From: Actinomadura bangladeshensis | Lineage (GTDB): Bacteria > Actinomycetota > Actinomycetes > Streptosporangiales > Streptosporangiaceae | Assembly: GCF_004348335.1 (NCBI RefSeq) | Contig: NZ_SMJW01000073.1 | Coordinates: 1 to 33,137 of the forward strand | Length of the DNA stretch: 33,137 nucleotides | Direction of reading: 5' to 3' | Part shown: piece after piece, positions 5,065 through 12,061 of the stretch | Layout: each line of letters begins with the position of its first letter | How positions within the stretch are numbered: the stretch's first letter is position 1 | The notes under the pieces: model-generated | What the model was told of the DNA's origin: nothing | Database searches by the model: none | The model's input: only the letters and a program-made list of their open reading frames with translations | Program-made: the position numbers and the translations under genes

Positions 5065-5080
5065 TGAGACTGGAGTCTCA
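5065..5080. promoter_or_regulatory. perfect palindrome TGAGACT-N2-AGTCTCA
   Basis: Seven-bp perfect inverted arms with a 2-bp spacer, 3 bp upstream of the KstR-type site. It is the best copy of the element also seen at 580-595 and 11752-11767. It is probably the operator of an unidentified dimeric (perhaps TetR-family) regulator. Confidence 0.6.
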
Positions 5081-5083
5081 TGT

Positions 5084-5097
5084 TAGAACCTGTTCTA
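5084..5097. promoter_or_regulatory. KstR-type operator of the P450-P450-GT-MT operon
   Basis: TAGAACCTGTTCTA matches TnnAACnnGTTnnA at all fixed positions and is palindromic apart from the two central bases. It lies 75 bp before the P450 start at 5173. With the palindrome at 5065 it forms a compact 33-bp composite control region. Confidence 0.8.
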
Positions 5098-5172
5098 GGT
5101 GCGTGCACCAAGCAAGCGCTCGAACGGCCTCCTCGCCTCGTGCGACCTCCGCCCCGGCACGAAGGATCTTCC

Positions 5173-6444
5173 ATGGCACTAGCGACGTCCCCCGTCTCCG
5201 CTCACCGGGCCTTCCGCGCCCCCGAGGTCGACGTCATCGATCCGGGCGTGTACGAGCGCGGGGGCATCCCGCACCGGCAGTTCCAGTGGCTGCGCGACAA
5301 CGACCCGGTGCACTGGCACCAGGACCCCAACGAGGGCGTCCCGGGGTTCTGGGCGGTGACGCGGCACGAGGACGTGGTGTCGGTGTCGCGGCGCGCGAAC
5401 CCCTACTCCTCGCACGAGCGGACGGCGATGTTCGAGGAGTTCGCCGACGACGACATCGCCATGTACGGCCAGATGATGCTGTTCCAGGACCCGCCGGACC
5501 ACACGCGGCTGCGCGCCATCGTGAACAAGGGGTTCACGCCGCGGATGATCGGCCGGCTGGAGGACCACATCCGCAAGATCTGCAACGAGCTGATCGACGA
5601 GGCGGCGCCGCTCGGCGAGTGCGACTTCGTGGAGAAGTTCGCCGCGCCGCTGCCGCTCTACACGATCTGCGAGCTGCTCGGCGCGCCGCTGGAGGACCGG
5701 GAGAAGATCTTCCACTGGTCGAACAAGCTGGTCGCCTTCAACGACCCCGAGTTCATCGGCGGGCGCGAGGAGTCGACGCTGTGCGCCGCCGAGTTCGCCG
5801 AGTGGGGCGGGCAGCTCGCGGCGGCGCGCGAGTCGACGCCGCGCGACGACATCGTGACCAAGCTGCTCACGCCGGACGCCGACGGCTCGCGGGTCAGCCT
5901 GGAGGAGTTCCAGCTGTTCGTGATCATGCTGTCGATCGCCGGCAACGAGACCACCCGGACGGCGACCGCGGGCGGCATGCTGGCCTTCTTCGAGCGGCCC
6001 GACCAGTGGGAGCGGCTGCGCGCCGACCGGAGCCTGCTGCCGAAGGCGGTCGAGGAGATCGTCCGCTGGGTGAGCCCGATCAACCAGTTCCGCCGGACGG
6101 CCCTCGTCGACACCGAGCTCGGCGGCACGCAGATCAAGGCCGGCGACAAGGTCGTGCTGTTCTACGGCTCGGCCAACCGGGACGAGCGCGTGTTCGAGAA
6201 CCCCTACAGCTTCGACGTAGGGCGCGACCCGAACCCGCACATCGGCTTCGGCGGCGGCGGCCCGCACTACTGCCTCGGAACCCACCTCGCGCGGATGAAC
6301 CTGCGGATCATCTTTGAGACCATCCTTGAGCGGATGCCCGACATCCGGCTCGCCGGCGAGCCCCGCCGGCTCCGGTCCAACTTCGTCAACGGCTACAAGG
6401 AGATCCCGGTGAGCTTCACACCGTCGGCCCCGCTGGGGGGCTGA
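5173..6444 (+). CDS. cytochrome P450 of the CYP124/125/142-like group (first of pair)
   Basis: A 423-aa soluble P450. The I-helix motif AGNETTR has its Gly at residue 257, ExxR lies in VEEIVRWVSP, and the haem-binding loop FGGGGPHYCLGTHLAR has Cys367. PDHTRLRAIVNKGFTPRM and PLPLYTICELLGAPLEDREKIF are typical of the group that hydroxylates sterol side chains and methyl-branched lipids. The KstR-type operator upstream supports a steroid or isoprenoid substrate, but the subfamily cannot be fixed from the sequence alone. ATG 5173 follows GAAGGA at 5161-5166. The next P450 starts 30 bp downstream, and the two share a long N-terminal pattern (VDPGxYERGGIPHxQ-like), so they look like a tandem duplication. 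Confidence 0.85.
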   Translation: MALATSPVSAHRAFRAPEVDVIDPGVYERGGIPHRQFQWLRDNDPVHWHQDPNEGVPGFWAVTRHEDVVSVSRRANPYSSHERTAMFEEFADDDIAMYGQMMLFQDPPDHTRLRAIVNKGFTPRMIGRLEDHIRKICNELIDEAAPLGECDFVEKFAAPLPLYTICELLGAPLEDREKIFHWSNKLVAFNDPEFIGGREESTLCAAEFAEWGGQLAAARESTPRDDIVTKLLTPDADGSRVSLEEFQLFVIMLSIAGNETTRTATAGGMLAFFERPDQWERLRADRSLLPKAVEEIVRWVSPINQFRRTALVDTELGGTQIKAGDKVVLFYGSANRDERVFENPYSFDVGRDPNPHIGFGGGGPHYCLGTHLARMNLRIIFETILERMPDIRLAGEPRRLRSNFVNGYKEIPVSFTPSAPLGG

Positions 6445-6474
6445 CGGCGTCCGCGGACGAGGAGGTTCGAGGCG

Positions 6475-7716
6475 ATGACCACCACCCCCGCTCCCGACAT
6501 CGAACTGGTCGACCCCGGCGCGTACGAGCGCGGCGGCATCCCGCACGAGCAGCTGGCGTGGCTGCGCGAGCACGATCCGGTGCACCGGCACCACGGCGAC
6601 CCCGAGCGGGACTACCCGCCGTTCTGGGCGATCACCCGGCACGAGGACGTCGTGCACGTGTCGCGGCATCCGGAGGTGTTCTCGTCGTGGCAGCGGCTCG
6701 CGCTGTTCGACGAGCCGCCGGAGGAGCATCTCGTCCTGCAGCGGATGATGATGCTCAACCAGGATCCGCCGGAGCACACGCGCAAGCGCGGCATCGTCAA
6801 CCGGGGGTTCACCCCGCGGGCGATCGGCGCGCTGGCCGAGCACATCCGCGACATCTGCCGCAGGCTCGTGGCCGAGACCGTGGAGAGGGGGGCGGACGCC
6901 GACTTCGTCCGCGACCTCGCGGCGCCGCTGCCGCTGTATGTGATCTGCGAGCTGCTGGGCGCCCCGCCGGAGGACCGGGAGAAGATCTTCACCTGGTCCA
7001 ACACGCTGATCGGCGGGGACGACCCGGAGTTCCAGCGGACGCCGGAGGAGGGCCAGGCGGCGGCGGCGGAGCTGTACGCCTACGCCAACGTCCTGGCCGC
7101 CGACCGGCGGGAGAACCCGCGCGAGGACATCGTCACCAGGCTGCTCCAGCCCGACGCCGGCGGCGAGGTGCTGTCCGGGGACGAGTTCGAGCTGTTCGTC
7201 ATGCTGCTGTCGGTCGCCGGGAACGAGACGACCCGGAACGCGGCGACCGGCGGCATGCTCGCGCTGCTGGAGCACCCGGAGCAGTGGGCGCGGCTGCGCG
7301 CGGACCGGGCGCTGGTGCGGACGGCGGCGGACGAGATCGTCCGCTGGGTCACCCCGGTCAACCTGTTCCGGCGGACCGCCGTCCGGGACGTCGAGCTCCG
7401 CGGCAGGAAGATCAGGGAGGGCGACAAGGTCGTCGTCTTCTACTCGTCCGCGAACCGCGACGAGGCCGTGTTCGCCGACCCCTGGACGTTCGACGTGGGC
7501 CGGGACCCGAACCCGCACCTGGGCTTCGGCGGCGGCGGGCCGCACTTCTGCCTGGGGTCCCATCTCGCCCGGCTTGAGCTGAGTGTGCTCTTCGAAACAC
7601 TCTTGGACACTGTGCCCAATATTGAACTCAGCGGTAACGTTCGCAGGCTAAGGTCTAGTTTCATCAACGGCATTAAGGAGATGCCGGTACGCGTGCGTCC
7701 GGCGTCCCTCGACTGA
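6475..7716 (+). CDS. cytochrome P450 of the CYP124/125/142-like group (second of pair)
   Basis: A 413-aa P450 closely related to its upstream neighbour. It has AGNETTR (Gly249), ADEIVRWVTP as the ExxR motif and the haem loop FGGGGPHFCLGSHLAR with Cys359. It lacks the roughly 20-residue N-terminal extension of the first copy. GAGGAGG around 6460 sets the ATG. The function is probably hydroxylation of a steroid or lipid chain. About the last 140 bases of coding sequence (7575-7700) are odd: many codons there end in A or T (CTT, AGT, GAA, ACA, TTG, ACT, AAT, ATT, CTA), unlike the rest of the gene. This may mark an embedded promoter for the next gene or a recombination join. Confidence 0.85.
   Translation: MTTTPAPDIELVDPGAYERGGIPHEQLAWLREHDPVHRHHGDPERDYPPFWAITRHEDVVHVSRHPEVFSSWQRLALFDEPPEEHLVLQRMMMLNQDPPEHTRKRGIVNRGFTPRAIGALAEHIRDICRRLVAETVERGADADFVRDLAAPLPLYVICELLGAPPEDREKIFTWSNTLIGGDDPEFQRTPEEGQAAAAELYAYANVLAADRRENPREDIVTRLLQPDAGGEVLSGDEFELFVMLLSVAGNETTRNAATGGMLALLEHPEQWARLRADRALVRTAADEIVRWVTPVNLFRRTAVRDVELRGRKIREGDKVVVFYSSANRDEAVFADPWTFDVGRDPNPHLGFGGGGPHFCLGSHLARLELSVLFETLLDTVPNIELSGNVRRLRSSFINGIKEMPVRVRPASLD
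7622..7649 (+). promoter_or_regulatory. possible internal promoter before the glycosyltransferase
   Basis: TTGAAC (7622-7627), a 16-bp spacer and CAGGCT (7644-7649) resemble an actinobacterial sigma-70-type promoter. They lie inside the compositionally odd 3' end of the second P450. It would give extra transcription of the glycosyltransferase gene 95 bp downstream. Sequence resemblance only. Confidence 0.25.
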
Positions 7717-11707: not shown

Positions 11708-11751
11708 CGATCTCCTCCGTCCGGGCACCCTACTATCCGGGCTCCGCGCGG

Positions 11752-11767
11752 TGAGACCCGAGTCTTG
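11752..11767. promoter_or_regulatory. degenerate TGAGACT-type palindrome, third copy
   Basis: TGAGACC-CG-AGTCTTG matches the perfect element at 5065-5080 with one change in the left arm and two in the right. It lies 11 bp upstream of a KstR-type site, in the same order as at 5065/5084. Confidence 0.45.
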
Positions 11768-11778
11768 CCCAGCCTGAC

Positions 11779-11792
11779 TGGAACGTGTTCTA
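11779..11792. promoter_or_regulatory. KstR-type operator between methyltransferase and ferredoxin
   Basis: TGGAACGTGTTCTA matches all fixed positions of TnnAACnnGTTnnA. It lies 77 bp before the ferredoxin ATG and 71 bp before the divergent methyltransferase ATG. A KstR site before fdxD is known in mycobacteria, which supports the call. Confidence 0.75.
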
Positions 11793-11869
11793 CTTTCGGG
11801 GGCGAGCGGCCCGGTCCGAACTCGGTTCGGTAAGTTGGCGGTGACGGTTGATCCTCGAAGGAGCAGACG

Positions 11870-12061
11870 ATGAGAGTACGAGTCGACCCGCTGGTGTGCG
11901 AGGCGAACGCCGTGTGCGTCGGGCTCGCACCGGAGGTCTTCGACCTCAACGATGACGACGAGCTCCAGATCCTCCAGCCGGACGTCCCGCCGGAGGAGCA
12001 GGACCGCGTCCGGCACGCGGTGCGGTCGTGCCCGAAGGCCGCGCTGACCATCGAGGAGTAG
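11870..12061 (+). CDS. fdxD: FdxD-type 3Fe-4S ferredoxin
   Basis: A 63-aa ferredoxin. Cys10 and Cys16 lie in CEANAVC and Cys54 in SCPKAAL, the three ligands of a single 3Fe-4S cluster. The usual fourth-ligand position is Asn13 (C-x2-N-x2-C), a variant common among P450 partner ferredoxins. The pattern [20 protein letters not shown] closely follows mycobacterial FdxD. It would pass electrons from a ferredoxin reductase to the three P450s of this cluster; no reductase gene is in the window. ATG 11870 follows GAAGGAG at 11857-11863, and a KstR-type operator lies upstream. Confidence 0.9.

Follow-up and report, generated by a model that had tools for sequence, protein, structure and literature searches.

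The 33,137-nucleotide contig NZ_SMJW01000073.1 of Actinomadura bangladeshensis, analysed over its full length (the window), is part of an 8.7-Mb genome in 609 contigs. On its plus strand, two genes for CYP125-like cytochromes P450 (P450 a, 5215..6444, and P450 b, 6475..7716) are followed by genes for a family 4 glycosyltransferase (GT4; 7745..9040), a class I methyltransferase (9084..9845), and an alpha/alpha-toroid protein (9835..10941); a second methyltransferase gene (11000..11707) lies on the minus strand, and a ferredoxin gene (11870..12061) follows on the plus strand. A preliminary description of this stretch had placed the first run, with all genes in one direction, behind a KstR-type site, and the second methyltransferase and the ferredoxin around another such site; we confirmed both observations, the sites being an exact palindrome (5084..5097) and one with a single mismatch (11779..11792). 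We identified 7745-11707 as a predicted four-gene methylmannose polysaccharide (MMP) cluster which, judging from its predicted operators, is very probably controlled by a KstR-type TetR repressor alongside sterol and lipid catabolism.

Three of the four products match solved MMP enzymes. The GT4 product, ManT (alpha-(1->4)-mannosyltransferase), matches 7qsg in the Protein Data Bank (PDB; E 7.6e-145), a chain whose PDB name is 'D-inositol 3-phosphate glycosyltransferase' and which was deposited as ManT by Maranha 2023 (PMC9883506). For the toroid protein, MmpH (MMP hydrolase), 7qsj (MmpH) is the sole PDB match up to E 1 (E 8.1e-125). The minus-strand methyltransferase also has a sole PDB match, 6g7d (E 7.5e-81), whose PDB name is generic and which we take to be MeT1, the 1-O-methyltransferase. 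The remaining product, the first methyltransferase (Pfam Methyltransf_11), has a methyltransferase fold and occupies the place of pMeT3, a putative 3-O-methyltransferase, beside manT and mmpH. In M. hassiacum, the locus tags MHAS_04402-04405 give the order manT, pmeT3, mmpH, meT1; in the same account, ManT elongates alpha-(1->4)-mannan, MmpH cleaves MMP into primers, MeT1 caps the MMP end, and 3-O-methylation is likely the task of pMeT3 (Maranha 2023, PMC9883506).

The mmpH gene was present in 65/65 genus genomes, 198/200 order genomes, and 92/396 genomes drawn from the phylum. Conservation was assessed in 100 mmpH loci (up to 20 kb around mmpH), hand-picked for contig size and genus spread: 40 from the genus, 40 from the rest of the order, and 20 from outside the order. 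The genes manT and meT3 accompany mmpH in all 100, and meT1 was found in 89. The equivalents of the ManT catalytic residues K240, E313, and E321 (assigned by motif) occur in 100/100 loci, as do those of MmpH Asp47, Trp49, Glu262, and Glu265; in MmpH, Asp47 and Asp50 are catalytic and Glu262 acts as the base. Two points tell against these assignments: the pMeT3 call is made from position and fold only, its activity being termed putative in print too (PMC9883506), and MmpH Asp50 is replaced by Asn here, as in 40/40 genus loci, 29/40 other loci of the order, and 5/20 loci outside it. In M. hassiacum MmpH, Asp47Ala and Asp50Ala are each reported to lower activity drastically, so the Asn is a deviation.

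The toroid had first been read as a protein of squalene-cyclase fold; by its match to 7qsj, it would instead be the MMP endo-mannosidase. It has no Pfam match, and its NCBIfam matches are weak, glucoamylase-like, and below cut-off. A squalene-hopene cyclase or prenyltransferase identity was rejected, as the protein itself matches no such family. Among the 120 MmpH relatives listed, a precomputed PF13243, which we take to be a squalene-hopene cyclase domain, is present in one (P0098); this likely reflects a resemblance of fold. Most NCBI-named MmpH relatives among those listed bear the label 'prenyltransferase', which is misleading and which the MmpH identity corrects. The closest of the named relatives listed is from Actinomadura livida (90%).

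We then asked how far the P450s belong to the cluster, counting a P450 as adjoining manT at an identity of at least 55%. One adjoins manT in 44/100 loci (genus 37/40, rest of the order 7/40, outside the order 0/20); of the 56 loci without one, two (L103, L157) stop at a contig edge. Because an adjoining P450 is confined to these 44 loci, mainly of the genus, the comparison identifies the P450s as a local addition to the MMP cluster, and a general role for them as MMP enzymes was rejected, none adjoining manT in the other 56. P450 a and P450 b are 59.6% identical to each other, both have CYP125MRCA (8vxi) as top PDB match (E 1.6e-156 and E 2.7e-158, respectively), and P450 a is 43.5% identical to the CYP125 encoded at 668. 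The pair most likely serves sterol side-chain oxidation and stands ahead of manT mainly in the Actinomadura-like lineage.

These data bear on the product first proposed for the operon, a glycosylated, methylated steroid or isoprenoid made with the toroid as a cyclase-like enzyme. In its favour are the adjacency of two P450s, a GT4, and a methyltransferase downstream of a KstR-type site, and the PF13243 of P0098. Against it, solved MMP enzymes (7qsg, 7qsj, 6g7d) are matched by three of the four partners, the genes stand in MMP order, the key residues of MmpH and ManT are kept except one Asp, and manT lacks an adjoining P450 in 56/100 loci. A steroid or isoprenoid product is thus barely credible, and the GT4-methyltransferase-toroid set, for which no described pathway had been known to the earlier reader, is that of the known MMP cluster (Maranha 2023, PMC9883506).

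The evidence for KstR-type control of the MMP cluster begins with the sites. The palindrome sought was TAGAACNNGTTCTA; that of KstR has been given as TAGAAC(N2)GTTCTA with the core TnnAACnnGTTnnA (Kendall 2007, PMC1995591). The window holds an exact site at 413..426, about 240 bp ahead of the CYP125 gene; a one-mismatch site at 615..628; the exact site at 5084..5097, the predicted operator of the P450-P450-manT-meT3-mmpH run; and the one-mismatch site at 11779..11792, between meT1 and the ferredoxin gene. Genome-wide, there are 9 exact and 9 one-mismatch sites, and 4 of these 18 fall inside the 33-kb window. The link to steroid genes drawn in the preliminary description stands: just upstream on the plus strand are CYP125 of the steroid C26-monooxygenase type (668..1912; PDB 3ivy, E 1.4e-167) and a steroid 3-ketoacyl-CoA thiolase of the FadA5 type (1981..3165; NF005889, 650.5 bits, cut-off 515). 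The 5084 site overlaps a possible -10 region (TTGATG-17-TAGAAC, by eye), and an operator/-10 overlap is described for kstR (Kendall 2007, PMC1995591); with the site in this position, the MMP genes would therefore be expected to be derepressed together with sterol catabolism. An ATG at 5080 is an unlikely start for P450 a, because the palindrome would fall within that extension, and 5215 is likelier.

The run may be co-transcribed. The gaps of 30 bp between the P450 genes and 28 bp between P450 b and GT4, and the 11-bp overlap of pMeT3 and MmpH, are as first given, whereas the gap of 46 bp between GT4 and methyltransferase depends on the start chosen and becomes 43 bp with the CTG at 9084. This CTG, the most likely meT3 start, stands behind GGAAGGAG, and a CTG is found there in 40/40 genus loci and 17/40 other loci of the order.

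Sites were next counted in 80 order loci (L085-L164). Allowing up to one mismatch, 50/80 have a site ahead of the manT operon and 42/71 one ahead of meT1, against 0 at these leaders for 40 palindromes made by permuting the same letters. The sites might serve the P450s and the ferredoxin alone, with the MMP genes as downstream bystanders; in the window, no KstR-type site stands directly ahead of manT, and the meT1 site is common to the ferredoxin gene. Among relatives, however, sites stand directly ahead of manT in several genera that have no P450 there (L136, L137, L143, L148, L155, L162), the meT1 site persists where the ferredoxin gene lies further away (e.g., L138), and in Nocardioides and Streptomyces manT has the regulator gene itself as its divergent neighbour, so that service to the P450s and ferredoxin alone is very unlikely. 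The preliminary description had proposed to judge its operon by the co-occurrence of the GT4-methyltransferase-toroid trio with P450s and with KstR sites across actinobacterial genomes. By this measure the P450 link falls away, the trio being complete in 100/100 mmpH loci and a P450 adjoining in 44, and the KstR link survives, since MMP genes that have no adjoining P450 still come with sites and regulator.

The candidate regulator of the A. bangladeshensis MMP genes is a KstR-like TetR (L194:5242-5898) divergent from a fadE34-like fadE pair (2300-4579), with a one-mismatch site, TAGAACAGATTCTA, at 5048 between them. Its best PDB matches are KstR structures, and matches to it (E 1e-25 or better) occur in 57/65 genus genomes and 186/200 order genomes. 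To relate sites to regulator, 87 order genomes were compared, 73 with a match at this threshold and 14 without. Sixteen regulator-less genomes have mmpH, of which G528 and G606 were left out of the comparison; G460 and G561, each with a KstR that passes the model cut-off but no more than a distant match, were kept apart. At two mismatches or fewer, a site lies at the manT operon or meT1 in 67/73 KstR-bearing vs 0/14 KstR-less genomes (Fisher 7e-12), and at one or fewer in 57/73 vs 0/14 (Fisher 2.7e-8), both P values being inflated by the relatedness of the genomes. Sites are thus absent where the regulator is absent. Thirty permuted palindromes at two mismatches or fewer averaged 0.3 and reached at most 4/89, and absence of the regulator corresponds to 8 inferred changes on the MMP-protein tree.

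Six KstR-bearing genomes have no site by the preset rule. On a later reading, four of them (L159, L161, L163, and L164) have a site ahead of the metallo-beta-lactamase-fold gene upstream of manT, in the stretch that separates it from a divergently oriented KstR-type gene; L158 has no site there, and L157 stops at a contig edge. The sterol thiolase was compared as well: FadA5 scored over cut-off in 24/35 KstR-bearing vs 1/16 KstR-less order genomes tested, and the regulator therefore goes with sterol genes in general. Of the 11 KstR-bearing genomes without FadA5 over cut-off, 6 have a manT/meT1 site by the preset rule, or 10 if the metallo-beta-lactamase leader is counted (the later reading).

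The association extends to other lineages. For Nocardioides and relatives, named genomes were scanned with the MmpH of G431, and of 181 loci the 80 best were kept, most of them from Nocardioides. Of the 78 loci with manT, 62 have a KstR-type TetR gene immediately next to it in divergent orientation, and a site lies ahead of meT1 in 55/77. The sequence AACnnGTT occurs within 300 bp ahead of manT in 62/62 loci with the divergent TetR and in 5/15 without it; it is flanked by [AG] before and [CT] after in 55/62, and other three-base half-sites tried there gave 0 to 11/62. Pimelobacter simplex ATCC 6946 has, one after another, the KstR-type regulator, manT, meT3, mmpH, meT1, an exact site, and a fadE-like gene, whose 685-residue product is 33% identical over 399 residues to the A. 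bangladeshensis fadE product. In Streptomyces, exact TGAAACTTGTTCTA was found in 115/151 genomes and the reversed control in 5, and all 30 loci fetched place the site between a KstR-like TetR and manT. Among 120 listed relatives of the manT-adjacent TetR of G383, those named by NCBI come from Streptomyces, which gives the genus of G383, and one other carries the JGI label of cholesterol catabolism regulator.

Several observations weigh against KstR-type control of the MMP cluster. At two mismatches or fewer, the motif is rarer genome-wide than its reversed control (128 vs 202); given this lack of enrichment, we give weight only to sites that are near-perfect or conserved in position, and none to lone weak ones. 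The strict core TnnAACnnGTTnnA lies within 300 bp ahead of manT in only 6/62 divergent-TetR loci of Nocardioides and relatives. None of nine Mycobacterium-family loci (L165-L173) has the core within ~420 bp ahead of manT; six of them (L165-L169, L173) have a different palindrome, TCTGGACACATGTCCAGA, or a near form just ahead of manT. G460 and G561 have a KstR over cut-off and MMP genes, yet no site. The MMP genes persist in KstR-less genomes, and MMP is therefore not dependent on sterol catabolism. On the KstR model NF033703, the A. bangladeshensis regulator scored 143 bits, below the cut-off of 280, and a tree with weak forks and long branches groups the regulators of the order with Streptomyces TetRs and paralogs of the kind found in this genome, not with mycobacterial KstR; for both reasons, we call it KstR-type and not KstR. 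Finally, the recognition helix is nearly common to the KstR-like paralogs, and another TetR could bind.

The palindromes could accordingly be bound by a KstR paralog and not by the KstR-type protein beside the fadE pair: the genome holds three KstR-like TetRs, one paralog having a nearly identical recognition helix. Such binding is unlikely, as the KstR-less G057 and G033 keep a paralog but have no sites at their MMP genes, and the sites track the KstR-type regulator (67/73 vs 0/14).

Taken together, these results suggest how MMP synthesis may be switched by the KstR-type repressor. ManT would add alpha-(1->4)-mannose, which pMeT3 probably 3-O-methylates; MeT1 would cap the reducing end, and MmpH would cut old chains into primers. 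With operators ahead of the P450-manT-meT3-mmpH run and of meT1, synthesis would be switched together with sterol or lipid genes such as CYP125 and FadA5: once acyl-CoA ligands derived from sterols, or related ones, release the repressor, MMP would rise. MMP has been proposed to hold fatty acyl-CoA and has been linked to growth in the cold (PMC9883506); extending this proposed role, it may buffer acyl-CoA or steroid-acyl-CoA. If a sterol- and lipid-sensing repressor does control MMP, the conditions of its production become predictable, and the KstR regulon is extended to a polysaccharide. Beyond this, we offer only tentatively the idea that KstR-type repressors outside mycobacteria regulate MMP as much as sterol breakdown, with MMP as an acyl-CoA (perhaps steroid-acyl-CoA) carrier turned on with lipid catabolism. 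Because the link between MMP genes and sites outlasts FadA5 (6/11, or 10/11), the KstR family may have controlled MMP from early on.

A second palindrome, TGAGACTNNAGTCTCA, occurs at two promoters of the window, plus a degenerate copy near 11750 (by eye). Its copy TTAGACTTGAGTCTCA (580..595) lies 35 nt ahead of the next KstR-type site, start to start, and TGAGACTGGAGTCTCA (5065..5080) lies 19 nt from the KstR-type site, likewise start to start. The genome holds only four matches at two mismatches or fewer, one of which (C535:1526) lies ahead of an apparent aldehyde dehydrogenase gene. The element recurs in the genus and in a few genera close to it, where it mostly stands at the P450-manT promoter, 19 nt from the KstR-type site there. 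In favour of KstR-type control, the promoter of the KstR-less G022 retains this neighbouring palindrome and has no KstR-type site; its assembly comprises ~1050 contigs, and its regulator may be missed.

Between the thiolase and P450 genes lies a gene for a metallo-beta-lactamase-fold hydrolase (3207..4211, plus strand; PF00753), a gene that sits ahead of manT in some relatives. The ferredoxin (Fer4_13/Fer4_15) is of the single-cluster, P450-serving kind; it matches 8amp (E 7e-09) and the CYP143 fusion 8amq. A sugar ABC transporter, a levoglucosan-dehydrogenase-like enzyme, and a ROK-family protein are encoded at 25145-31340 and are unrelated to the MMP genes and KstR-type sites.

Sterol-responsive expression has been reported close to what may be a comparable locus. 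In Nocardioides simplex VKM Ac-2033D, kstR is KR76_12270 and chsE3/fadE34 is KR76_12295, and in cluster B (KR76_12190-12345) 12 genes are induced by phytosterol and 16 by cholesterol (PMC7807495, PMC7593942). By locus-tag numbering, four genes fit between KR76_12270 and KR76_12295. They (KR76_12275-12290) are unnamed in the main texts of these two papers, and we found no mention of them in the open-licence papers searched. The likeness is that Pimelobacter simplex ATCC 6946 has the four MMP genes between a KstR-type and a fadE-like gene. In these open-licence papers, we found no report that joins KstR with methylmannose or Actinomadura with KstR, and MSMEG_6481-6484 appear in Maranha 2023 only. 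Papers that mention methylmannose alongside cholesterol, or polymethylated polysaccharides alongside steroids, do not, judging by their listings, deal with such a connection.

Compared with the mycobacterial MMP cluster meT1-mmpH-pmeT3-manT as given in PMC9883506, the locus has all four genes in the M. hassiacum order, with meT1 opposite to the others, as in mycobacterial loci. It differs in the two CYP125-like P450s that precede manT and in its KstR-type sites, the nine Mycobacterium-family loci having no adjoining P450 and no KstR-type site ahead of manT, and its MmpH has Asn where that of M. hassiacum has Asp50. With the KstR regulon of Kendall 2007 (PMC1995591), it shares the palindrome TAGAAC(N2)GTTCTA and the divergent arrangement of fadE genes and a KstR-like TetR; unlike that regulon, its regulator scores below the KstR cut-off and the MMP genes are among its predicted targets. 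The MMP cluster itself is thus known, and it is its predicted KstR-type control that looks new.

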